From Argopecten irradians (lineage: Eukaryota; Mollusca; Bivalvia; Pectinida; Pectinidae), in contig NC_091144.1 in NCBI RefSeq assembly GCF_041381155.1, positions 18,051,544 through 18,115,543 on the forward strand: a stretch of 64,000 nt of DNA, in the 5' to 3' direction. The stretch's first letter is position 1. Each line of letters opens with the position of its first letter. Below the pieces are notes generated by a model. That model was not told the origin of the DNA. It made no database searches and saw nothing but the letters and a program-made list of their open reading frames with translations. The translations under genes and the position numbers were made by a program. This document shows, piece after piece, positions 20,936-59,900 of this stretch.

Positions 20936-23900
20936 ATGGCGTCCACTCTAAGGATGAGCTTCACCAGTCTTGTGACAGTTGTTTCCCTTCTCCCATTATG
21001 TCTGTCAAATCCCGGACCTGTCGGTTATCTAAATTATGCCACACTTTCCGACATGATATCACACTCTATCAAGACTGCAGTGAAAGAGCTGGAAATTAAA
21101 AAACATTTTGAAGAGCAACATTTCCATTCGGGTACGTCATTCTATTTGAAAACTAAGACAAACCAGTTTCAAGAACCAAAACATCTATTTTCGCAAATCA
21201 CGATGACTTTTGACGCTCATTTCATTGTTTTGATTGATATTTTTGACATTGTTTGCCGCTATGATTCTGTATAGTAAAATGTTTATTTTCTGTTTTAGGA
21301 AATGACCGTAAGTTGTCGGAAGGTCATTTGTGGCACCATGCTCGATTCATGTTTTCTGGAGACCGAGGGAAAGTATCGCAGCTAAACGATAAAGCTTACA
21401 TCAGTGTTCGGGCTACAAAGGAACTACTTAGTCTGTAAGATACATATGGAAATGGTGATATATCATATAAAATAGGGCTTTTGAACCTGCAAAATTCACC
21501 ATTGACATAGTCCCTATATATATATGCAAATAGTACGTTCAATTATTTTGAGATCTATACTGTTAAACCTCGCGTTTCAATGCAATGATATATATTGACG
21601 GTTTCATGAATTTTAGACATTTTAAAGCGAAGTTAAAACCCGCTCTGAATAATCCGAAAAATAGTATCAGTAGAGACTTTTATTACTCTTTTACTGACGA
21701 TCGGCAATTTATACATATTATATAAAAAATGAATAAATACATAATTTTTCTTTTCCACTTCTGACAGAACAAAACTGCCCCTAGAAGTACTACAGTCCGA
21801 CCCGAAAGTCGTTGAGAAGTGGCGGCAGTGTATTGATCCATACTGTAGCTGCCCAGTCCCCAGATGTAACCCAAAACAGTGGTATCGTACGGCCGACGGC
21901 ACTTGTAACAACCTGAAACATCCCAACTGGGGCGCCTCAATGAGGCCACAGCTTCGATACTTACCGGCGGCATACAGCGACGGTATGTTCTAAGTGCGTT
22001 CAATGCATAAGACTTCATATGTAGACTTGATGTATTCTTTCTGTTGATGCACGCACTTTCTTTTCTAACAGCACTACTAATTAATTACTTTTGTAGATAA
22101 GTCTTTCTGAATAAATTTCAAAATTGTAATGTTTGAATCACTGATGTTATGGAAGGTATTTTAAAATTAAAGGGTAGTTGGTCGAATTGAGTTAATGCAT
22201 AAAAATAAGTTGATTTGTAGCAGTACCCTTCATTTCTCTTTTCTCAACATCTTCGACATGATATGTCACTGTCGTTGATAATGGGACATCAAACCAACCC
22301 AAACCAACCACACCAAATAGCGATACGAAGTCAGTTAAATAAGATGAAATATTGAATTTTACTTGTTACGAGCATTTCCATTGGCTTAAAAAATTACCTT
22401 ATCAGCCATAAAGGAAAAAATGGCGTCGCCTTTTGAAACGTTGCTCCTGATTGGCTGGGATGACGGCGTAATGATTTCATAGACAAAAGAGTCCCAAAAT
22501 GAATTTTGAATATTGAAGAGATTATCTTTTGTAAATTGTATTGTAAGGATTAATTTGAATAGATTTTTATCTTACGGGGATATAACACAAAAAATCTATT
22601 TAAGTTAATCCATAAATACTATAAAAAGGAGAAACATGATATGTTACAAATTGTTATATTACAATCCTTTTGGTACAGGTATAAACATGCCTCGAATCTT
22701 CAGTATCACCGGTAAACATCTACCGAGTGCCAGAGTGATCAGCAATGTAATCCATAGTACAGGCACGTGTCGATTTGACGAGAATGGTTACTCCGTACTA
22801 TTGATGTCCTGGGGCCAGATTATCGACCACGACTTACAAGGAACCCCAATGACCAAAGGTGGGTATATCCTAACGGTTATAACGATTCTCTGGAAGTTAC
22901 TTCGGTATAAACATATTTCATTATAGGTATTTACAACAAACAATTTATTTATTTGAGTCTTTATCACGAAGATCAGTATGAATTGGTGTAAGCGTGTTTG
23001 TCAGAACCGTGTTGTACATGCGTTTTATACTATCCCATAGCCACCTTTATCACTTTGTTGTATCAACCATTTTGTTACCACGTATGTTATTATAGTTTTT
23101 CATATCATTTATCAATAGTATCTCACATGAAACATGCTTGATAATATCACTTTCATTCCAGTCCATGATGTTTTTCTTTTATCTTTACAGGTTTCAACAA
23201 CTCGGATATTATGTGTTGTTCACTTGGGGAGTCTGCCGCCGATCAAAGGTATGTAAACATATGTCATATCAACGGTTTTTTTTATTTATCTAGCTTAGAT
23301 GAAAATCAATTATGATACATGTATACACATTGGTTTTAATATTAGTTTGTCTTAATAAAAATATACTTGGTTGAGTAGATTATTTTATCGTTTTCCAAGA
23401 AAATATCACATTTGAAAATTTATCTTCAATCCAATAAATGATTGGATAGCATTCTCTCATTTCTTTCCTTGTTTTCCCTTGTCTAATCACAATGCTATTT
23501 TTAACAAACAGGGGATCCTGTTTTCCGATAAAGGTGCCTTTGCCCGATCCCCGATTTAGATCAAAGTGCATGAACTTCGTCAGATCTTCTATCGCGCCAA
23601 CACAGTTATGTGATATGGGTAAGACTATTTTCAAATATAGCTATAACTTCATTTACAATTGTAAAATCAAAATGATCGTATAAGATTCGTGACAAATCGC
23701 TGTAGGCAATTACCAACAATCCACCATCAGTACTGCTCAACGAGGATGTACAAATTGTAACTAGGACAGATCAGTTCAATAGTATGAAATATGTTGCTCA
23801 TGAGTACTTACAGTTTTGTTGGATCTTTTAGATGATAGTATGAATTATACAGCAATGAAAATGCCTGTTTCTAACACTATTGAATTAATAAATTAATCTC

Positions 23901-26900
23901 ATGTACCTATTGAAAGGAAAGTTCTATGATTTGGTTGTTGGTTTAAAATGATACATCAAATGCATGACAAATCTGTGCTATTTTAAACTATGAATAAAAT
24001 GGACGATTTTGAATTACAGGTGTGCGAAACCCTGTCAACCAACAGTCTTCCTTCATTGACGGTTCCTTAGTGTACGGCTCCACCGAGGAAATACAAAACA
24101 GACTGCGGACAGGATATGGAGGTGAGTAGAGTCAGATATGTAGTAAAAATAATGAATTTGCTTGTATAAAGTCACCCAAACGCATGCATAAACCTGCCAG
24201 TCTTAAAGCATTGCTCATTAAAGTTACCTCTAGACTAATGATGTTGTTTCGCTTTTGAATTGAGGAAAACCCAATAAAAAGAAGACTCTTTCAGAATTAT
24301 TGGCAATGTATTAAATATCTCCCCAATAGCAAACCCTTTTCTTTTTAAAAGACAAAGAAAAGTTGTGAAAAACGGATGCATGTTTTAAGTTGATCGTACG
24401 CTAAATGTAGGTAGAATAATAAAAGTTAATGCAGGAATTAAGTACTTCAATTCTCCTTACTATTTCTAGTGGGAAAGACATCAATGAGGAAGAAAACGCA
24501 TCAATTTCGCAAATAGACATTGAATTGAACTACCGAACGATTATCCTACGCGTTAATCTACTCTCTGTGTTATTTGATTTACAGGTATGTTGAAGATGAG
24601 CTATAAGGGTTTGCTGCCCCCAGCAGATGAATCGAAATGTATGCTTTCTAATCCGGGAGAATACTGCTTTGACGCAGGTAACTAAAACCTTTACATCCCT
24701 TTTAATTAAGCTTTTGTTTAACGAAAACAGACATCTAGTCACTTCGATACAGAAAATTATATTTTGTATGTACCTAGAAATTTGGTCATTTTTGTGTTTA
24801 ATTTAGGTTATCTTCATATGCAAAAAATATAAATACTCGTTTTATCCGATGTTGATGTGAAACTGATAGAAGTCTTACAGTCTGACGTTATAATTTCATA
24901 TTTTACAGGGGATGACAGAAACTCTGTTGTTCCAACACTCGCCTTTCTCCACACAGTGTTTGTCCGGGAACACAACAGGATCTGTAAAAAACTTCAATAT
25001 CTAAACCCTTTCTGGAACGACGAGAAAATATTTCAAGAAGCCAGAAAAATTGTGGCGGCCATTTTACAACACATCAACTATAACGAATACTTACCGCCTA
25101 CTGTCGGTGAGACGCACATGAGGGCACACGGACTGTACTCGACGCCAAAAGGTCATCACACTGTCTACAATCCCAAGGTCAACCCTACCGCCTCTAATGT
25201 GTTCGGGGGAGCAGCATTCCGTTTTGGACATTCGCAGGTCCCCAATTTAATGGGCATGAGAGACCCACACTCACAGGTTACCAAAGAAGTACCAGTACAG
25301 TTTACATTCAACAGACCAGCGATGATCTTTGATGACCACGGTCTGGGCTGTGGACGAGTAGCGCACTGGACGCTTAACAGCAAGCAAGCCAATCAGGATC
25401 GGTTAATTCAGGATGGCTTGAGAAATTATCTTTTCTTAGATAAGGAAGGAAACAGTTTTGATTTAGCAGCACTGAATATACAACGGGGTCGTGATCATGG
25501 CATAGCTCCATATAATGCTTGGAGAAAATGGTGTGGCTTAAAGCCTGCGTTCCACTTTGGAGTCGGACCAGGGGGACTTGTCGACATGGATCCAGAATCA
25601 GCAATGCTTCTTTCCAAAGTATATCAGTAAGTAACTAGCGGGTTTCCATATAAACTTTGAAAAGTTTAATGGAAGATTTTGCATCCTTAGTATGTCATAA
25701 ACATTTTGAATGGAATGTTTTTGTAACTTTATTTTTCAATAATGACTATTTAATACAAAAAAATAATAACGTGGAAATTTTTTTTTTTCATCTTAATTTA
25801 ATTGTGTAACAGTTCTGTTTTAAAGATTAATCGACCAATTCAGACGCATATATTCTTGTAAAATATCTTAAACTATCGAATGCTGCTACCCTGATACAAT
25901 CAGGTGAAATAAGAAATTAAACCACTTAAGCATGTTTATTCCAATGATATTGCATGTACCTTAAGTAGGGAAGTGACAAATATATGTATGCCTCAATCGG
26001 AAAGGCTATGAAGTTACCATTCGAAAATCACCAATAGCGTTTTAGTAATAGTAAACATTGCTATAGAATTGTCCTAAATGTTTGAACTCTCTAGTAACCA
26101 GGCAAATGTAAATAGATTTTATATTAATGCATATAGTGCATCATTTATTGAATAAGGTTTTGTTAAGATAGCATTGTCTCATCACTCATGGGAGTTTTTC
26201 GGGCACATGTACCAGTGGTTCTTGTCTTAGTTCTAGTTTGTTGTACAATATGTTGTAATGTTCAAAGAAGAGCCAAAATAAGTTTGAAAATGCTAGATTT
26301 TCTACAGGATTATGAGCGTATTTCTGTTAAACCCCCGCCACAGGATGTAAACTGTGGTAATATATTTTACAAAAGTTGTATTTCCACATGATAGATTTCG
26401 AAGAATATAATAATGTGATGATTCTTAATAACAAATTGTCATCTTTTATAACTTGGTCATTTCGATTAATATGTGGCTTTGAGTTTTATGGGGAGCAACC
26501 ATAAAATTATATAAATAAATTAGTCTCTATTCTCGTTGTAGCCACCCTGACGACATTGACCTTTACACTGGAGGATTGGCAGAGATGAGACTAAAGGGAG
26601 CACAGACAGGACCCATATTTGCATGCATTATTTCAAAGCAGTTTGAGGCATTCAAAATGGGTGATAGATTCTGGTACGAAAATGATTTCCCTGCAATTGG
26701 ATTCACCAAAGGTGAGGCTCTTTATAATCAATAAGTGGTCCAGATAGGGTTTAACAATTACTGGAGTAATGATTTATCACACATTTTACTTTAAAGCCGG
26801 TTATTTTCCAGGGTTATGATTTAAGTTATTTTGACTATTTTAAATTTCGAGACATAGCTATAAGGGTACCTATAGTCTATCAACTATTCTATATTTCGCC

Positions 26901-32595: not shown

Positions 32596-35469
32596 ATGAA
32601 TACGTTTCTAGTGTTCATGATATTAAGTAAGTAAAGCGTTGGATGTGTTAGTCGGTTCGACGTTTAGAAATTTTATAAAGTACAAATATCACATGCCTTT
32701 TTCTTAACATTCCACATCGAAATCAAAATATGTTAGCCGTCAAAAAAAAAAAGAAAATAATTCTATGGTTGAAATGTAGTTAAAATTGCAAAATATGAAA
32801 AACAAGCAGATAAATAATCATTTTCTTTGGGCTATTTGGAATATATAACAAATTAGTATTGAAAGAAACATAAATCTCTTGTTTGATATTGAATTAATAT
32901 CAATGAAACTGCAACCCGAAAGATATTCCATATATATTGCCATTTTTTGCGATATGGATTGATACCATAATCAATTTAGATATGTTATCTTCTCATGCAA
33001 TCATCCTAATTGTAGCTATTGTGGCCGTTCTGACATTGTTTGCTGATTGCCATCATCACGACTGCGTTGTACAGCTGAATGACGTCAACACACAAATGCG
33101 TCACGTGTGCTACGGTATTGACGAAAATATTATTAGCAGCCGGGACGTAAGCGAAGAACTGGCTCATTTCAGCGACGAGATGACTTTAAATAGACGTATC
33201 AGGCGCCTTCGAAGGCGAACTCGATATCTGAAGAGGCACATGCATATATTAAAGAATGAATATGTAAGTACCGCGTTTGACCATTTTTCACGTAGACATT
33301 TTCTTTCATCGCAAAGTTTGCAGATATCAAATGTTTTGCTGAAACTTAAATTAGAAACAAACCTCTTTTGATAACGATATTTAAAATAAATAAGGCAACA
33401 TTACTATAATATAAAATCGGACCCATGCAGTCAATTCTGTATACTTGAGTATCAATATTCGCCAAGAGAAAAAGACAATGTGATATCAATAGTCAGGGGT
33501 CACTGTACACTGAGGTCTTATTTTGTTGATATTGGCCATTTGGGACCATTGGAAAGTAATCTAATGATACTGTCAATCTTAATACGGATGCTGTCGTTAA
33601 GGCATTTGTTTGTGTTTTAAATTTGCCGAACCAAACCACATAATTTGTTTTACGATCTTGCAATACTGCAAGTCATTTTACTTTCGTGAGGAAATTTCAC
33701 GTATTTTTCGGGCGGTACGACATCGCGAAAATAATTCACCGATAAATTCCTTATCGCAGGTAACCTAGAACCTCCTTATCACGTGTATCCTAGAACCTTC
33801 TTAACACAGGTAACCTAGAACCCCCTTATCACAGGTAACCTAGAACCTCCTTATCGCAGGTAACCTAGAACCTCCTTATCACGTGTAACCTAGAACTTTA
33901 TTATCACAGGTAACCTAGAACTTCCTTATCACAGGTAACCTAGAACCTCCTTCTTACAGGTAACCTAGAACCTCCTTATCACAGGTAACCTAAAACCTCT
34001 TTATCACAGGTAACCTAGAACCTCCTTATCACAGGTAACCTAGAACCTCCTTATCACAGGTAACCTAGAATCGTATGACGCTAAATCGCGAAGTTAAAAC
34101 GCTGTGAATAGGTTGTTAGACGTGAAAACGCAAAACTTGTCGTCACGTAAATACTTTGGTTAACAGTAATTAGATAAAGAAAGAATTAAGAATGTTATCG
34201 TGTTTCCCCGATCAGTTTATTTGAATATTTTTTTTATTTCGATTTATTTTATAATTTCAAGGCTACTTTACAACCTGAAGTGATGATAAATCAAAATCTG
34301 TTATCATAAATTATGTAAAGAATTGCGTCCGGTGTAGAAGATATATCAGCCTGTACCAGAAATCATTAAATATCATTAAATTTCTGTAACAGTTGGCAGT
34401 CAGACAGTTGGACAGTGTGTTGAACAACACCACCCTCTCTCAGCAGACATGCACTGTGTTGTCAGATGTAGGTAGTCGCCAGTCTCTCACCATCCAAAGG
34501 AAGCTACAGGTAAATCGGTTATTAAAATGTCATCAGCAAAGGGGGAGAACCTGTTCTCTATTGGTTCCTTCTATATCATTATCGGCACTAAATTTCCTTA
34601 TGATTGAGAAAGTTTCCTTATACCTTCTTCCGTTTACTTAGTCTTTTGTTTTACTCAGTTACTTCGGAGGTTTAGAACATTTGGATATGAAATAATATTA
34701 GCATATTGGATAGACGTATGAGCTATGAAGTTCTTATTCACTCTTTGAAAGGAAATTATATTGTACACTTTTATGTTACATTTAGCTTTGCTAATGCTGA
34801 AGATGAAAAATAAAATCAATAAGAAATTTATTTAACAATAAGATACGAAAACAACATATAAAAAGTATATATTGTTTCAGTTGAACTAGGAATAATCGAA
34901 TAATAATCATCTTGTAGCAATTCTGGCATTTTTATACAGTGCACAAAGAATGTCAGCCTCGTGTTCATCGTGTTCTTATTTCTATTAAAATATTTAGAAA
35001 CGAAATTATTTATCTACGGATGAGGACCGAACATAAGTTTATTGTTTTTCAATTGAAGTAGTAATCGAATTTGTTATTTTATATATTTATGCAGCTCTTA
35101 CGATACCTTGAGCAGGAGTTTGCTCGCCTAACAGAGGTGGTTGGAATATTGTCTTTAATGTATGAAGACGAGGATCAGAACGAGTACGATACTCATTTCA
35201 CTTCTAGAATAGCTACGACAAGGTCGACTGCCGATACAGCCCTTTGTGAGTTATTCTTTACAATTAGGAAGGTTTACGACAGTCTATCTGGTGCGGGATT
35301 TACTCTAATTGACAGTCACGTGACCCCGGATGGTTGGTATACACCGGTTGTATCGTCTTGGTGTTCTGCATCGACAGGAAGTTGTCGTCGTGAACGGAAT
35401 GGGATCGTCCTCGTACAGCTTGCCCAGTTCACCAGTTTACTTCGAGACAATATCAGATCTCTGCGATAA
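32596..35469 (+). CDS. Secreted cysteine-containing helical protein, unrecognised family, 256 aa (paralogue A)
   Basis: Exons are 32596-32626 (31 nt), 33016-33263, 34393-34509 and 35095-35469, totalling 771 nt in frame. Intron phases are 1, 0, 0. The first exon encodes ten residues that join exon 2 to make a signal peptide ending near LTLFADC. Mature features: Cys22, Cys27, Cys42 (RHVC), a very basic helix at about 66-93 (NRRIRRLRRRTRYLKRH), two overlapping N-glycosylation sequons at 104-107 (NNTT), Cys113, helices at about 124-157, 170-197 and 235-256, Cys183 (LCE), Cys222 (WC) and Cys229. An AATAAA follows 34 nt after the stop. No family is recognised. The helix count and exon plan resemble long-chain helical cytokines. 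The start of exon 2 was chosen because it restores a signal peptide and matches the paralogue; an ATG at 32983 in an unspliced reading is the alternative. Confidence 0.8.
33757..34072 (+). repeat. 25-bp tandem repeat, about 12.6 copies, in intron 2 of paralogue A
   Basis: The unit is CAGGTAACCTAGAACCTCC plus TTATCA. Copies differ by few substitutions (CGTGTAACC, CGTGTATCC variants). Every unit carries CAG|GTAACC, which reads as an acceptor and a donor at once. Confidence 0.9.
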
Positions 35470-35502
35470 TTCAGCACACGGAGATATTGAATTAGTCAGT
35501 AT

Positions 35503-35508
35503 AATAAA
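35503..35508 (+). terminator. Polyadenylation signal of paralogue A
   Basis: A canonical AATAAA 34 nt past the stop codon implies a very short 3' UTR. Confidence 0.5.
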
Positions 35509-37553
35509 CATTGTTAAATTGATATTTTTAAATGGATAGGTTTTCAAAAACCATAGATTATGTTAGTATTGATTTATTTATTAAAATTTATTTATTCGTC
35601 AATTATGATTTTTTCAGAAGTTCAACAATAGTTTCAAATGTTTTGAATGCACATTTATAATGACAAAAATAACTCATCATACAATTTATTTTTGTTTAAT
35701 TGCAATGAATTGTCTTCTGCTTCAGTTATTTTATTACCAAAAGTTCATTTTTTTTTTACTTCTTTTTTAGTTCAGTTTCCTTTATGACATGTTTCATTAT
35801 GATTAACACATTTTTAATGAATGTAATGTAATTAATCTTAATTAAAAATGTATTATTTGATCAATATTCAATACAAATAGAAATTATTAACATGATTTTA
35901 TATAGGGCCTACTAATTACTATAGTTTGTGGTTGTCGGAAACCTAAACAATATGAACCTTAATCGTATTATTAAATCACTGCCAAATAAGTGTACATTAT
36001 TTGATACATTAATTTACATTGTATTGTGGCGTGACTGTGATAACCACGGGATGTTTTGTGAATTATGATTGTTTTAAAATCGCAACTGTCCATGATGTTA
36101 TGTTATTTATGGAATATTTCCCTATTTATAGTTTGTCCTTCATCTGTTATTCAATCTGGAGAACCGAATAGATGATATCAGTTTTCCCTGATTCTAATTT
36201 TGCTGTTTATACACTGTATATACTACCAAAACATTCTAACCATTACATTTACACACATGTGACGGTGTGTAAAATTTCAAATGTGTATTTTCATGACGTG
36301 GAGATATACCTCATTTGATATTCTGCAGTAATGTACAGTACCTATTTTAATCCATTTACAAAGAGATAGGTTATCAGCTAACGTTCAGTAACCTTTTAAA
36401 ATTTTTAAGACGAAGGTAGACTCTTAATAGACGAAAGTTTATCCCATAATATTGCTATATATAGTGCAGTTAATGTACCACAGCTATTACATATACTGTT
36501 CTTTTTATTACGAAATTGTTAAAGTTAAGTTGCGTAAAATGCCATTCATGAATATGTCTGTGTATCGTCTGAGTAATTTAGTAAGGTTTTAGGTAATATT
36601 AAAAATTTTGTTTACAAATTTTTCCAACATAGCATTCGGTATTGTAACTGTCTCAAATTTACCTATATCAAGTTATGCAAATAAAACGCTGTTGTTTTAC
36701 CTATAGCTTTGCCTTATTAATTTTCCGAAAGCAAATTAAACAATGTGTTTTACTTGAAACAATACCCCTGTCTAATCCTTCTTTGTTACTTCTAATATTC
36801 AAGTTGGTGGCTTTTATTTCTCATGTACATGTATTCATGATGTCTTTCATCGAAAAAAATTAAATCTTTACTTTATATTCAAGGCACTAAAGTTATTACA
36901 ATGAGAAAGAAATAGAAATCAAACTAACTTTGAGCCCATTATAATTCTTAAAATGCATTACTGTAATTAATAAGGAAATCACAGGTAAGTGGGTTGGAAT
37001 ATTGTCTCGTGATTCATTAATTCATTGATTTAAGTTTTTATGTCAATGGTGAAATCCAATTAAATGAAAAACTGGATGACTATACACTTCGTCATACTGA
37101 ATGCGTTTTCGTATTGATATCCAATATCAAATCTCTTTCCGGTAACCCGTATTTTAGTCTTACACTGGTAGACATATCTAGTCAGACGCTATTCACTGTA
37201 CAAAGGATACATTTACTCTTTAAAAATACAAACGTGTATAATGCAGGTGCCATATAAGCGATAAATGTTTTATCGAGATCGTCCGCTTATGAATAATTTT
37301 ACGCTTTGTTGATTATCATAAATATACTTTATATTTGGCATTCAATGACACGTACAAGTGTTTTATAATGAAAATTCATTTCGCTGAATTTTAGTTTTAA
37401 CTATGAAATAGTGTAAAAAATATGTATATACATATATGGGAAGGTTTCTGTTCATTAACACAAATACGCATTTTGTTTAATTTGAGTGAAATATAATAAC
37501 ACACATAATGAAGAGAACAGGGGATCTTGGGATTCATTTAAAGCGTAATGTAT
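35509..37553. other. Intergenic region between the convergent paralogues
   Basis: About 2 kb of AT-rich sequence with no frame over 65 codons and no recognised repeat. Confidence 0.45.
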
Positions 37554-37559
37554 TTTATT
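37554..37559 (-). terminator. Polyadenylation signal of paralogue B
   Basis: AATAAA on the minus strand about 165 nt past the stop at 37726. Confidence 0.4.
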
Positions 37560-37725
37560 TGTGAAACAATATATAAAAATAGTAAAAAGTAATTAAGATG
37601 TGTATTACGATAAAAATATATCAAATAAAACAATACAAAAAACTTAACAAAATCAGTCGTAAAGCTGTTTAAAATGAATTATTTTGAGGTATAATCATGA
37701 TGATGATTCATAGCCATAACCAACG

Positions 37726-40700
37726 TCATGTGTCGATTTCCCTAATGTTCCTTTTGAGTATACTGGCATATTGCACTATCTGTGTCAGTATAATGAAATT
37801 TCTTTCATCACGACACACCATGTTGCTGACTGAGCACCAAGGAACCACTGCATTGTACAGACCAGTTCCACTCACGTTACTCTCCACAGCCTGACCAGAT
37901 ATACTGGCAATGCGTCTTATTTTCATTATTGTAAGGAACATTTCACAGAGAGTGCTCTGTACGCTTACGCTGGCTTCCCTCATTCCCTGTACCGCTCCTC
38001 GGTCATCCTGCATCAAATCGAGAACACCCGCGACAATCGTCAAAGAAGCATAATCCTGTTCCAACCTCTGTAGTAACTGGAAATAGTAAATTAAGCTTGA
38101 GTTAGTGTGTTAACCTAAGTTAAATAACAAAATATAAAAAATGCACATTCAGATTTTTGTCACCCCCCCCCCCCCCCCCCCCCCCCCCACTGACCCTATA
38201 TTCCTATATAATCTTGTTGAACCATATTGTTCATAACGATTGACTTACATTCCGCTGAAACAATGTAATCATTAGTATACTAAAAAATGCACACAATGTA
38301 CGTATCTGAAATACTATATCGTTCTCAACCCAAAATATCAATCTTATTAACAACATGCCCAATATCTAGAGGTATGGGTTTCGTATTAATGCAAACTTTT
38401 CAACGTTTGAATTGATGCTATGGTTTCTTTTTTATTTAGGGCTATGTTGATGTAATTTGTATTCCTATTTGATTTCATAATGAATTATAATGTTTTAATA
38501 ATAAAAGACAGTTCTAAATATCGTGAAGTCAATTACATGATGTATTATCCCTTCCTGGTTTCTACTTTTTGACACTATGTTCATCAGTCAGTTTGCATTT
38601 TAGTTTTTATATTTCCGTTAAACAACTCTTTATCTTTCAAATACAAGTAAAATATTTATTTTGTTCATTTCACCCTGCACTTCCGATATTACCTGGACAT
38701 GGTCATGAATCGACAATAATTGGTCACTTCCTGTCTGAATAGGTAGCAGGCACGGACGGTCAGTGGAGGAAATGTAATCTTCATCCATACACGCATTGTC
38801 CACACGGAATTGCTGCAACATCAAATGAATATATGGATCCTGTATGGTAGATTTATGTCATAACTGAGAGATGAGGTAAGTAAGAGGTGACTCGCAAGTA
38901 AACATGAAATAGTGGACAAATATTGACTTATATAGTTTTATGCATCTGTATCATCTAACAATCATAAACTAAGTGTGCTTGAAGAACAACACAGATGTAC
39001 GCTGCAATGACTCTAATACCACTTTCTTGGTTAAAGGTTTTCTTAAATAGATTTTATAATAAATGAAAAAGAGAGGGCACACGGTATTACATGTATAATA
39101 TGACATATGGTATTACATTATGTAGTGTATTAACATTTTTCATTCTGAATTTATTTGTTCTTTTGTGTCTAGATAAAGGGACAGATCACTCCGAGACTCG
39201 ACAATATTTTGTCCACACTGTTTGAATTACATCTTTGTCCCATATTTACAACTTCATGTAATTTGTATTTTACAAACAAGGATTTGTAAGGACCCAGTGT
39301 TATCTGGAATACAACCGTTGATATAATTTCTTTGACCCACAAAATTTTCATTTTTTTTTATTTTGCATTATTCTGTAAAGAAAGTTTACAATAATGTCTA
39401 TGTTTCCTTGACATTTAACAGCTGTATATTGAACCTTTATAGCTGTAAACGTACACATTTTAGCGTGATGTTGATTGTGCTAATGTGTTCAATATTGCGC
39501 CAAAATAAGTAAATATATAAAGTATTCAACACAGATGAAAAGTTATGTGTTCCATAAATAGTCGAAAATTTTAACATAATCTTTTCTCCAGTCATCTTTT
39601 GAAAGCCACCAGATTTGACGAAACCATTCAAATGAACAGAAAAACACGTCTTAAACCTTATAAACATTAGCTACAGGACACATTTTATGTAATATATAGT
39701 AATAAAATTATTTTTATGCCTTATATATGTTTAGATGAAAACATACATGCAGAAATTACAATTATAAGTTATATTGTAAATACATTACTGTAAATTTAAA
39801 TATAATTATTTTAGCAGTATATTGACAAAACCCATTTTATGCATTTATTTGCATGCAAAATGAAAACCTATACATTGTAAGTATTGCAATGCTCCAAATG
39901 TTGGTAAGTGTTGGTGGTGAATGACATAATATATTAAAGATTTTTTGATTCGCGATTATCAAAATTACGGCACATTTAACAATAAGGTTGACATTTGATC
40001 TTAAACTTACTAAAATATATTTTTTATACTTTGGATGGCAAAAATGGGATTAAAACATAAAATGATTTTAAAAAAATGGTTCGGATTGAGCAAGGAGTAT
40101 AATGTAAAAGAAACATTTAGTACACTCACGTAATGTAGTTTGAGAGACCTGAGACTCCGGTGCATTATAGTCGTCCTAGCCCGAAGTCGCCTCAGGCGCC
40201 CCTGTAAAGTAAAATCGTCATCAACTTCATAGCTCTCTTCAACAGTCGGATCGGTTACCGGAACCATGGCACCGAGACACACGTGGCGCACATCTGTGAT
40301 GACGTCACTTTCGTCCATCAGGCAGTTTCCATTCTGACCTTGAATTCCTATCATCCAAGATACTAAAATAAATGGAATAAAAACAATTGCATTAACCTTC
40401 TGAGAATCGATGGTAAATTACAATGAAAATACATTGAACAAGAAGAAAAAAATCATATCCAAATATGCATGAAAAAGTAATAGATTTATCAAACTGTATT
40501 TAACGTCGGTATGTTTTGTAAACTACACCACGACAATGTCCATCCAAGAACATTTCATAAACTATTATAATTATGATGTAATTGACAGATTTAAGCGGAC
40601 TGCTAAATGACGATACAATAACACAACTAATAAGCTTCTTGACTTCAAAAGTTCTAACCCCAAGAAAAATATTATGAACATGCTATGTGTTCATGTTGGA

Positions 40701-40929
40701 TTATTTAAAGAAAGGACTGTTTAATGGCGATACAGTTATACTGTATTTTAAAAGAACTGCTTGCTCATGTTTTACATTTATTTTACATTCTACCTGAACT
40801 GTTGAAGATTAAGAAATGTGAAATTAGTTTTGATCATGATAAATGATTTATTTTATTGTATTGGCTTGAGATGTTAAATGAACGTTTTAAGTGATACTTA
40901 CACAATATTATACATAACACATTTTTCAT
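37726..40929 (-). CDS. Secreted cysteine-containing helical protein, unrecognised family, 243 aa (paralogue B)
   Basis: Exons in transcription order are 40929-40902 (28 nt), 40362-40130, 38812-38693 and 38076-37726, totalling 732 nt in frame with phases 1, 0, 0 exactly as in paralogue A. The tiny exon 1 plus the start of exon 2 encode a signal peptide (MKNVLCIILLSWMIGIQG). Aligned with paralogue A: Cys23 and Cys38 (RHVC) with the same 15-residue spacing, a basic LRRLRAR helix ending exon 2, Cys108, LLQRLEQDYASL opening exon 4 against LLRYLEQEFARL, Cys171 (LCE), Cys208 (WC) and Cys215 with the same 7-residue spacing, and RNFIILTQIVQYASIL against RNGIVLVQLAQFTSLL. Cys95 is specific to this copy and Asn194 is a sequon. 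Identity is low overall, so the duplication is old or the pair evolves fast. Confidence 0.8.
38163..38188. repeat. Poly-C tract of 26 bases in the last intron of paralogue B
   Basis: Uninterrupted C on the plus strand (G on the transcribed sense strand), about 87 nt before the final acceptor. Such tracts are length-unstable and may be mis-sized in the assembly. Confidence 0.9.
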
Positions 40930-53900: not shown

Positions 53901-56900
53901 AACTTCTACACAGTAATTGACTGATTGCTAGCTGTCGTGACAAAATCTAACTTCTACAAAGTAATTGACCGATTGTTAGCTATCATGACAAAATCTAACT
54001 TCTACACAGTAATTGACCAATTGCTAGCTGTCATGACAAAATCTAACTTCTACACAGTAATTGACTGATTGCTAGCTGTCATGACAAAATCTAACTTCTA
54101 CACAGTAATTGACCGATTGTTAGCTGTCATGACAAAATCTAACTTCTATACAGTAATTGACCGATTGTTAGCTGTCATGACAAAATCTAACTTCTATACA
54201 GTAATTGACCGATTGTTAGCTGTCATGACAAAATCTAACTTCTATACAGTAATTGACCGATTGTTAGCTGTCATGACAAAATCTAAGTTCTATACAGTAA
54301 TTGACCGATTGCTAGCTGTCATGACAAAATCTAAGTTCTATACAGTAATTGACCGATTGCTAGCTGTCATGACAAAATCTAACTTCTATACAGTAATTGA
54401 CCGATTGCTAGCTGTCATGACAAAATCTAAGTTCTATACAGTAATTGACCGATTGCTAGCTGTCATGACAAAATCTAAGTTCTATACAGTAATTGACCGA
54501 TTGTTAGCTGTCATGACAAAATCTAACTTCTATACAGTAATTGACCGATTGCTAGCTGTCATGACAAAATCTAACTTCTATACAGTAATTGACCGATTGT
54601 TAGCTGTCATGACAAAATCTAACTTCTATACAGTAATTGACCGATTGTTAGCTGTCATGACAAAATCTAACTTCTATACAGTAATTGACCGATTGTTAGC
54701 TGTCATGACAAAATCTAACTTCTATACAGTAATTGACCGATTGCTAGCTGTCATGACAAAATCTAACTTCTATACAGTAATTGACCGATTGTTAGCTGTC
54801 ATGACAAAATCTAACTTCTATACAGTAATTGACCGATTGTTAGCTGTCATGACAAAATCTAAGTTCTATACAGTAATTGACCGATTGCTAGCTGTCATGA
54901 CAAAATCTAACTTCTATACAGTAATTGACCGATTGCTAGCTGTCATGACAAAATCTAACTTCTATACAGTAATTGACCGATTGTTAGCTGTCATGACAAA
55001 ATCTAACTTCTATACAGTAATTGACCGATTGTTAGCTGTCATGACAAAATCTAACTTCTATACAGTAATTGACCGATTGCTAGCTGTCATGACAAAATCT
55101 AACTTCTATACAGTAATTGACCGATTGCTAGCTGTCATGACAAAATCTAACTTCTATACAGTAATTGACCGATTGCTGGCTGTCAATCAAAGCGCACATG
55201 ATTTTGCATTTTGTATTGTGTATGCTAAGATGTTCACGAGGAATGGTTATGTTACACCTGGCGATCGGTCAATTTATAGTGGTTAACATGTCTTTATCAA
55301 ATAATGGATTTCATATTACAGACGATTTTACAATTACTCCCAATGAAAAATTTAACGAAAAAAAATCTTTGTTTGAAAACAGCTAGTTCTAAGTTGTAAA
55401 ATATTTTACTTTTATCTTCAATAGGTTTGAAAGGGCCATAAATACTCTACAATTTGTATATTATCAACAGAAGTTAAAAATATCAATCCTTGATGAACCA
55501 CTTGATACCCACCCATTGACTTTTTTCCCTTCAGCCGTGCCACTGATCCTCATGTGAGGATCATTTTCAATGTCAGCACACACAGAACTCTGATCCATCT
55601 GAATTTTATCATCTGCATTCCTCGACGACCACAGATCGTCCGAACTTTTCTCTCGTGGCACATTGTCCTGTTTAGATTTTGAAGGACGTTTTTCGACAGT
55701 TCGTTTTTGCTGTTGTTTATTACTTAGAAACCTGTTTGCTTGTTCAAATTCATCATCGATTGAGTCATTTGAGGCGTCCCTGAGAAGTCTAGGTTTTGTA
55801 TCTTCACGTTTTTTTTTGTGCTGATCTGCTGTGTCTTCAGTGAGAAAATCTAGCAGACTAGCTTCTTTTTTCAGTGGGGGCGGCTCCTGTCTGTCACCTT
55901 GCTTGGAGAACCTTGACCTTTGACCTTGATTAGCTGATGGACCTGGAGACTTCCTTCCAGACACGTCCTTTGTAGGGGTTTTCCTACCTTGGAAATCCCT
56001 TGTGGGAGTTTTCCGGCCCTGTGGATCATTTGTGGGTGTTTTCCTACCCTGTAAGTCCCTTGTTGGTGTCTTTCTACCCGCTTGATCTGTAGGTGTTTGT
56101 CTTCCATTGATTCCAGGCATTTTCTGTCCCCCTGTTGGAGTCTTCCTACCACCATAGAGATCTGTAGGTGTTTTCCTCCCAGGGCTCCTTTTGGAGAATC
56201 TTTGACTTTTCTGGTTGTCCTCATCGTCAGATAATTCCACTTCCACTGTAGATGTCTTACCAAATATATCAGTTGTGTTTCTGGGTCTTGGACGAGGTAC
56301 ATCTCCCTCCCTATAAAGCATAATATAATTATATACCAGGTACATGCTGTTATTAGATTATATTACTTTTTATTTAGGAAAATTGATCACACACTGACTA
56401 CAGAAAAACAATGCATTCTCATTTAATTAGATATATAATATAAATTTACATTTTGGTTTTCTGATGTGCTTTTGATTATAAGCAAATTTTTTCAATGTCA
56501 TGAAATTACTTTTAATACAGCAGCTTAATATAAGATGTAGCTACAAAAGTTTGTCAAATACATGATGTATCAATAGATAAACTTAACAAAGAAACCGATC
56601 AGATATTAATGTACTCACTTGGTTGTTCTGGGAAGAGTTGTCCCTCCCGATATGCGTGGCCGAGGAGATGGGGTTTCCGATATTGGCCTCAAGGACGATT
56701 CTAATGAAGGTGTGGTTCTACCTCTTAATCCTACAATATTGGAATTTGTAAATTGGCAAAGGTTGGAAACATCTTAAGTCCTCATCATAATAATCCAAAT
56801 AGAAATGTAGTTAACAGTGAAGAATAATTCCTAAATCAAAGTACTCTAAGTACTGCAAATATAATGCAGCAAAAACAGAAAAATAGAATGAAATCAAATG

Positions 56901-59900
56901 AATTTCATAAATCAAAATATATAAACCATATAACAAAGACTTAGATATCAATTATTTCAAGAACATTCAACGCTAACTAATCACAGAACATACATATATT
57001 CTGTTCGATTTTTTCTAAATTATTTTGATAAAACCATCATGCGCACATGAGGGCAGCCTTATGTTGTATTGCCTTTACCTAAGATCTGTTTTTAACACAG
57101 AAAGAACATCTGATTAGTTTACTTCATAACTCCAAAGTTCTCAGGTCTATAAGCCTTAGATAGTAAGTCCAATTTTAATTATCATTAACAGAGATTATAT
57201 GTAAGTTGGACAGAGTCACTAGCAGGCACAACAGTCAGTGAGTACTGGTATAAAGTACAGTTGACCTAGATGGTGCTGTGTATTCTATACACACTCTTGT
57301 GTATTCTACCAATCAGAAGGCAGTCTTCCCATGACTACTAATTGGTCCAAAGGATTATTACTCAATGAATAGGGAATTTATGAATAGAAGTTTATGAATA
57401 AAACAGTTCAAGAGGTCACCACTAGATGTCATTGTAGGGCAAGTCCTACAAATTAAAAGTTAACAGGATTACAATAATACAAATGCTACACCCGTTCTAT
57501 TAAAAAGTACAACAAACCAGTCAGTGTGTGACATTCCCAGAAATTTCATTGCAATCTCAAAATCGGTGCTATGAACATCTTAACAAGAAACATAAAACAC
57601 ACTTTTATTACAAAAACAACAAAATTAAAATATCGTACACAATATTTTCAAAAAATTGTTAGTCTAATTCATTGCCTTTATCTGATATATTGTAGGGGAT
57701 ATCTTATTGACTGTTCATACCTGATGTAGGTGAAACTCCCCTATCCCCTGATCCTCTGTCATCATCTGTCATAATGGGGCTTGCCTTCCTCAGGTTTGGA
57801 GCTTGCCAGGGCTTGTTAGGGTCCTGCTGAGGCTTCCTGAATACCAAAAACACATCAGACCATATGTTTATTAACATGAATGTATTTTATATCTTGAATA
57901 TATGTTTAAAATGGATAAAGAAGTGATTTAAATGAAAGAAAACATTTGTATATGAATGTTGGATAGGAAATTATCATCTGATGAGAGCCCCAAGCTTGCA
58001 AGAGGACAATACATGCAAGGATGCTGAATCATGAGGTGACAGGTCTGGAGTATAGAGTTTGGCATCAAATGATGTCTGCATGGGCAATAAAAAATATTTG
58101 CACCTGATAGAAAATTACAATGTCCTTTACTTACAACTACTACAGTTTAAACATGGCATTTAACACACTTGAAATGTTAAAAGATAATAAAACAATAAAG
58201 CTACAATTTAATATCAGAAGCATGATAATGTCAAAGAATGATGTGAAAAACATATTCTTAAATGTCAATGAAATCTGAGCTTACCCATATAGATCCTGGG
58301 TTGGTGTCTTCCTCCCAAAGATCATGTCTGAGGCAGACATTGGTTGTTCCTGCTTAAGTTTAGAATTGGATTTATCTCCCTTTGGGGAAAGTCCTCCCTT
58401 ACTATCTCCATACCCCTTCATACTAGAGGTCCCTTTAGGGGATAGCTTTGGAGATGAAAGAGAAGGCATTTCCATGCTATATCTGTCCCGAGGTGGTGTT
58501 TTTGGAGAACTCAGAGGAGGCATGCCACTTCCACCTGATGAACCTCCCTTTTTCATAAATCGATCACCGGCTCCAGGACGTAAGGTCTCGGTTAGAGATA
58601 AGTCTGCCTGCTGTTCCAGAGGGGAACGACGCTTAGCAGAGGTTGGACGATTACTACTTTTTTGCTGGAAATTAGTACGGTATTGTGCATACGCATCTGA
58701 AAAGATAAACAACATGCATATATGTTAATGCCAAAAAAAAATATGTCTGTTTAGGGTTACATTGGCAAAAAAATAGGTTGGTCGGTCAGGAGATCTTTTT
58801 TTAGTGTCTTTCACTCTAAAAATAAAATAATGGCTGGAACCGGAGTCTGAGATCAATCCCAACTTTTTAAAAAAAATTCATAGCAAAGTGGTAAAAGAAT
58901 TAGAGTCGGGGTAAAAAATTATAGTTGGTCAGGTTACCCTAAACAGAGATATTTTATTTTTTTGGCCTAATGATTTTATTTCAATTTTATGTTAATAAAA
59001 ATGACACATATATATGCATTTTTCAATAAAATTTTAAGAATTACAACTACTAAATTTTCTAAGTTTTTAATTTTATTGGTACAGATAAGAGTTAAAAGTG
59101 ATTTTTAGCAGTACTGCCAAAACTCATTATATCTATATTTAATGTGTACTGGTGAAATGAGTACATACAGACTTGACGTCAAGTTGTGGTCTTCAATATC
59201 ATTTCACATTGTGACAGTGTTATTATTAATTATTTGTAAAGCTCTGCAGGTATGTTTCCATGCATCTAAATTTACATACTGGTACATGTATATATAGCAT
59301 AAAAAAAAAAAGAGGAAATTAACAGTACATAAATTTTGTATTGTAATTAATGTTTATAATAGACATCATGTATATTACTTTGTCTAAGCCTTTGAATGAT
59401 TTTCACAGCTTAATTCACCAAACCTAAAGGTTTTAAATAGATAACTGAAGAGATATGTGAAGTATCAAAATTTCCCTCGTATTATGTCACATATTACTTT
59501 AAAGCTCATCTAATTGCAAAAATAACATGCACTTTTAAACTCTTATGCAAGTATGGTTTTCAACATTCATTACTTAGAAGTATTTTGGGCCCTTAATTAA
59601 GGCCCTTTAGATTTTAATTAAGAATTGTCATTATTTGAGACCATTTTTAGATGTTTTTTTCTGAAACAGACTATAGTGACCATCTTGCTTTTAGTTTTGT
59701 ATTTTTATGAAACTTACTATGATAAACTTACGTTTTGAAGTCAAGTAAGTATTGAAATTACATAATAAGTAAGAAATGTATGCACCAGAAGTATTAAACA
59801 TTGGTTAAATATGTCTGTTTCACAGAATTTTTGCATTTTATGCTAGCCCATTTGTTTACCATGCGTACACAAAATGGCGGACTGTGCTTTCTATCGCTAC

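Follow-up and report, generated by a model that had tools for sequence, protein, structure and literature searches.

Genes A and B, which converge from opposite strands within a 64,000-nucleotide stretch of the genome of the bay scallop Argopecten irradians (the window; positions 18051544-18115543 of contig C11), are real, homologous four-exon genes. The reading toward which we lean, tentatively, is that they represent an undescribed scallop family of probably secreted, mostly alpha-helical proteins, most likely acting as soluble signalling ligands of the four-helix cytokine type. Genome searches covering 846 Mb in 1508 contigs indicate that the family numbers at least four genes in this animal, and deposited proteins place relatives of gene B in two other scallops.

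Gene A occupies the forward strand. Its first exon (32596-32626, +) contributes 31 coding nucleotides that start the leader, runs from ATG to TTAA ahead of a gtaagtaa donor, and ends in phase 1; the second (33016-33263, +) encodes the remaining leader, a Cx14C motif and a basic stretch, and an alternative in-frame start at 32980 would give a longer leader. Exon 3 (34393-34509, +) comprises 39 codons with one cysteine and two overlapping N-glycosylation sequons, and exon 4 with the stop codon (35095-35469, +) carries C183, C222 and C229, completing a product of 256 aa. Gene B, on the reverse strand, consists of a first exon of 28 coding nucleotides ending in phase 1 (40929-40902, -), exon 2 (40362-40130, -), a 40-codon exon 3 (38812-38693, -) and exon 4 with the stop codon (38076-37726, -), and its product is 243 aa long. 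All six introns of the two genes are GT-AG, with phases 1, 0 and 0 in each gene. A deposited A. irradians protein named uncharacterized (P0001) is identical to residues 13-243 of B, with the same junctions on both sides of exon 3 and an agreeing exon 4, and this identity means that both internal junctions of B were deposited independently. P0001 begins inside exon 2 and has no counterpart of the first exon of B; the first exons of both genes are predictions from the sequence. The coding ends, at 35469 and 37726, leave 2.26 kb between them (35470-37725). Taken together, the junctions, phases and P0001 bear out the first-pass annotation of the DNA, which had proposed an opposite-strand pair of four-exon genes with stops 2.26 kb apart.

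Comparison of the two products by blastp gave E values of 1.1e-29 and 5.1e-28 with 32-35% identity over approximately 240 aa, far beyond chance. Six cysteines are common to both proteins (C27, C42, C113, C183, C222 and C229 in A; C23, C38, C108, C171, C208 and C215 in B), with one additional cysteine in A and two in B. The earlier claims of six aligned cysteines with spacings of 15 and 7 residues, and of low overall identity combined with retained gene structure and cysteines, were therefore both confirmed. The segments LLxxLEQ and RNxIxLxQ were likewise found in A and in B as had been stated, and LLxxLEQ is not conserved further in the family, reading LLSRLGR in C and IYQSLSQ in D.

A genome-wide search for further members, which the first-pass annotation had suggested, yielded these two genes, C and D. 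Gene C lies on the same contig as A and B, 16 Mb away, shares 37-39% identity and was found by searching with the fourth exon of each gene of the pair; its exons are 34460035 (or 34460056, there being two possible starts)-34460077, 34460482-34460723, 34462077-34462193 and 34462677-34463051. Exon 2 of C was found by search (as query, the second exon of A matched it at E 8e-12 and also matched the second exon of B, at E 2e-5) and exon 3 by reading the sequence. For exon 1 a script listed 13 candidates, and among those with a GTAAGT donor the closest to exon 2 was chosen. Gene D was first seen as a weak match of exon 4 of C on contig C6 (E 0.46, 26%) and encodes 242 aa in four exons with phases 1, 0 and 0 (45181813-45181828, 45182186-45182430, 45182722-45182838 and 45183321-45183671), of which exons 1 and 3 were picked by eye to fit. 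The phase-1 first exon of C and D is thus partly there by construction. D is a distant member, with 21-22% identity; a profile built from A, B, C and the orthologues of two scallops gave it 33.5 bits, where none of 2000 shuffled versions of D exceeded 6.8, and blastp without composition correction matched it to B at E 2e-10 and to A at E 4e-8 (1e-8 to 2e-6 on recheck). In reverse searches exon 4 of D found C weakly (E 0.18) and a piece of its exon 2 found itself alone, so the membership of D rests on the profile score, the exon layout and its similarity to B and A in blastp. Cysteines at positions 42, 113, 183 and 222 of A are strictly aligned in D, one more lies near the sixth, and D has no counterpart of the first. 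Two weak matches considered as further members, one at C3:13349059 (E 2.0) and the other at C8:19774544 (E 4.2), had in-frame stop codons and no family marks and were rejected. No more credible members emerged with exon 2 of A, exon 2 of C or a hand-made exon 4 average as queries; the genome search scores best candidates only, and four is therefore a lower bound.

Features of the gene models extend across the four genes. Exon 3 is 120 nt long in B and 117 nt in the other three genes, sequons occur in it in three of the four members, and the N-terminus is hydrophobic in all four models, exon 1 of C and D having been picked to fit. Across all six pairs of A-D, pS was 0.73-0.78, saturated or nearly so, and pN was 0.43-0.61, a value that alignment by protein biases low. 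Judging by these substitutions, the four genes are old copies under protein-level constraint.

Profile searches of 5.77 billion proteins at E up to 10 returned three matches, all from scallops and all named uncharacterized: P0001, LOC117340029 of Pecten maximus and LOC132552401 of Ylistrum balloti (P0003). The closest paralogue of the Pecten and Ylistrum proteins is B (68% and 45% by blastp, respectively), and homologues in related species, on whose existence the first-pass annotation had made its proposal depend, are accordingly present in two other scallops. The same annotation had called the genes fast-evolving; the 45-68% identity between scallop orthologues, taken by itself, would fit that description. 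Gene A protein as a lone query of the protein database gave no matches, and no deposited protein for A or C came from the protein searches that had them as queries. The queries were A alone and profiles of family members other than D, and the search depends on shared five-residue words and is blind to far relatives; on account of this word requirement, matches confined to scallops do not establish absence outside scallops. In P0003 exon 3 is missing: exon 2 runs in frame straight into exon 4, with both junctions unchanged, which reflects a skipped exon or else a gap in the annotation.

Several other features of the window were recorded. Upstream of gene A are exons of a gene for an animal haem peroxidase (21745-25627, +; An_peroxidase E 2.5e-72, 3.8e-11 and 5.1e-11 in three pieces). 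A stop-free frame of 405 codons at 54069-55283 (+) is made up largely of short LLAVMTKSNFYTVIDR units repeated in tandem and is probably a minisatellite and no gene. Open stretches with GRKTPT-type repeats at 55467-58724 (-) are perhaps exons of one minus-strand gene, and Pfam, at E up to 0.01, matched none of the pieces tried. A 25-bp minisatellite of approximately 13 copies (33748-34070) sits within the second intron of gene A, and 26 consecutive C (38163-38188) within the third intron of gene B. Two AU-rich nonamers lie 105 and 119 nt past the stop of gene A and none within 1 kb past gene B, a weak mark in AT-rich sequence where the window background is 0.15 per kb per strand; TATA-like boxes, STAT-/NF-kB-like motifs and AU-rich elements also occur in places, in sequence that is 64-73% A+T, and are therefore non-evidential.

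Searches against known families agreed with the earlier statement that no described family fits, as no Pfam, NCBIfam or PDB sequence match was accepted. Pfam at E up to 10 gave no cytokine family, and no interferon family among the matches, for A-D and P0001-P0003; HMMER filters discard most Pfam matches above E of approximately 0.1, and distant real cytokines may also fail such searches. The HRXXH putative peptidase family PF13933 appeared at E up to 10 for two of three members and for none of D and P0001-P0003, and was rejected because its score on 37 residues of A, 16.1 bits, fell short of the gathering cut-off of 27. PDB sequence searches returned no cytokine, profile A1 giving five unrelated weak matches (E 0.36-9.2) and profile A7 none. 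Nothing credible was found in NCBIfam with five proteins or in phage families with three, and viral contigs scanned with profile A7 gave 24 pattern matches, none of them confirmed. No description of the family was present among the matches listed in literature searches, which left subscription journals mostly outside their coverage, and LOC117340029 was not named in the literature searched.

Helix propensity combined with hydrophobic periodicity near 100 degrees, taken as the mean of five aligned sequences, marked residues 45-95, 120-156, 168-202 and 229-254 of A as candidate helices, and the same helix-propensity method also flagged short stretches at 30-39 and 99-107. The signal is patchy: windows centred on 71, 74, 177, 180 and 186, which fall in the first and third stretches, peak at 155-165 degrees and not near 100, and in B alone the 170-degree moment exceeds the 100-degree moment over most of the helix 1 region. 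Four cores were drawn after helix calling (68-93, 125-154, 171-198 and 231-254), and 2 of 29 prolines fall inside them, both among the opening six residues of the second core, with 27 outside; the automatic stretches gave a weaker contrast, 11 inside against 18 outside (binomial p 0.004). The loops between cores, of 31, 16 and 32 residues, are approximately long-short-long, an order characteristic of up-up-down-down four-helix cytokines. The order in A is a lead, and no test, pointing to a possible four-helix cytokine fold.

The leader-like N-terminus, the conserved cysteines and the helix-like stretches together suggest a secreted, folded protein, in which the cysteines may form disulphides, and a stable gene layout with a changing sequence fits a ligand. 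In the arrangement that we propose, helix 1 would form at the end of exon 2 and be followed by a long linker in exon 3; exon 4 would supply helices 2 and 3 with a shorter loop between them and, in its later part, a long cysteine-bearing loop and helix 4, the four helices presumably packing as a bundle. The secreted protein would then bind a surface receptor and signal, plausibly via a molluscan cytokine-receptor/JAK/STAT module, and any choice of receptor is speculative. A and B may serve an immune function, and the immune-ligand reading of the first-pass annotation is plausible but unproven.

As to the gene layout, IFNL2/3 are described in PMC2654155 as having a tiny first coding exon, with one nucleotide of a split codon on it, and other introns in phase 0, and A-D read like that description, with a tiny phase-1 first exon followed by phase-0 introns; the resemblance is not diagnostic alone, and phase-1 introns are reported to be generally over-abundant near signal-peptide cleavage sites (PMC1626468). 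With regard to a receptor, PMC13203501 describes IL6R, JAK and STAT as co-occurring in Mollusca, where a canonical IL6 ligand is lacking, and puts forward alternative ligands for molluscs, e.g., a C-type lectin as in shrimp. The BLAST screen given there required an E value no higher than 1e-5 and an identity of 30% or more, thresholds at which a family as diverged as A-D would be missed. In the A. irradians genome, STAT_alpha had three matches above its cut-off. IL6Ra-bind had one match, at C2:27806719, whose 18.8 bits lie below the cut-off of 24.3, with no WSxWS-like motif around it in the open stretches of at least 45 aa on its own strand over 29.7 kb, and the four EpoR_lig-bind matches were all under the cut-off. 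Since no cytokine match was obtained, the receptor models stayed under their cut-offs and the helix signal is patchy, the family has not been filed as cytokines. The narrower proposal, that A-D are lophotrochozoan long-chain helical cytokines and the missing ligands of a molluscan IL6R/Domeless-JAK-STAT module, we regard as unlikely, if worth keeping in view.

Other kinds of secreted protein could share many of these properties. Fast-evolving reproductive proteins, engaged in gamete recognition or belonging to seminal or egg-envelope fluid and partly helical and basic, offer an explanation that we hold to be unlikely but deserving of serious attention: orthologues of B were found in scallops only, at 45-68% identity within one family, and whole-chain net charge differs strongly among the paralogues (0 in A, -7 in B, +13 in C and -5 in D), but the exon layout and most cysteines have been kept across old paralogues on two contigs. 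The same range of charge, from -7 to +13, makes a common cationic killing mechanism improbable and so weighs against a secreted immune effector that is no signalling ligand, such as a cationic helical antimicrobial or a carrier protein, for which the leader-like N-terminus, the helix-like stretches, the cysteines and the basic stretch of exon 2 in A, B and C would all be suitable; we consider this rather doubtful.

That basic stretch, within which leucines are conserved, also raises the prospect of a prohormone or growth-factor precursor cut at dibasic or RxRR-like sites to release one active fragment. Candidate sites in exon 2 are RRLRRR in A, RLRR in B and P0002, and KR/RR pairs in C. The conserved leucines, the 100-degree periodicity of the stretch in A, C and D, the conservation on both sides of it, exon 4 included, and the few dibasic sites in the corresponding part of D all speak against cleavage, and we judge a precursor of this kind improbable. 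Least credible by a wide measure is a gene-prediction artefact or a set of decayed copies, an explanation to which we attach hardly any weight: A and C are without a deposited protein in the searches using them as queries, but there are four open gene models with matching exons and protein-level constraint, as well as the deposited Argopecten protein equal to B and the deposited Pecten and Ylistrum proteins. For B, the artefact explanation is refuted in practice.

Were A-D indeed long-chain helical cytokines and the missing ligands of the molluscan module, helical cytokines of that type would predate vertebrates and occur outside arthropods. A family with a cytokine-like gene layout provides definite genes to test as the missing molluscan ligand. 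If the role proves otherwise, the genes still make up a well-delimited family, so far undescribed, in a species of importance to aquaculture.

Among named systems, the helical cytokines (IL-6/LIF/growth-hormone and IL-10/interferon-lambda) resemble A-D in the leader-like N-terminus, size, candidate helices and approximate loop order, but differ by Pfam and PDB sequence, and A-D have a cysteine pattern of their own. Genes of the IL-10 family are split into five exons, their introns dividing the helices (PMC2654155), whereas candidate helices 2-4 of A-D lie in one exon; IFNL2/3, from the same source, are similar to A-D in the short phase-1 first coding exon and the phase-0 introns after it. CgIFNLP of the Pacific oyster is likewise a small bivalve protein, and its three-dimensional structure is described as resembling class II helical cytokines (PMC9756803). 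It is approximately 15 kDa (PMC8218723), in comparison with 193-258 aa for the scallop family proteins, and is said to have an IFN domain (PMC9756803), whereas the scallop family has no Pfam interferon match and is set apart by description. The scallop family, which has no cytokine-type Pfam match, is likened to the Drosophila Unpaired (Upd) proteins, ligands of Domeless, by its proposed role; if the cytokine reading is right, both would be invertebrate helical JAK/STAT ligands.
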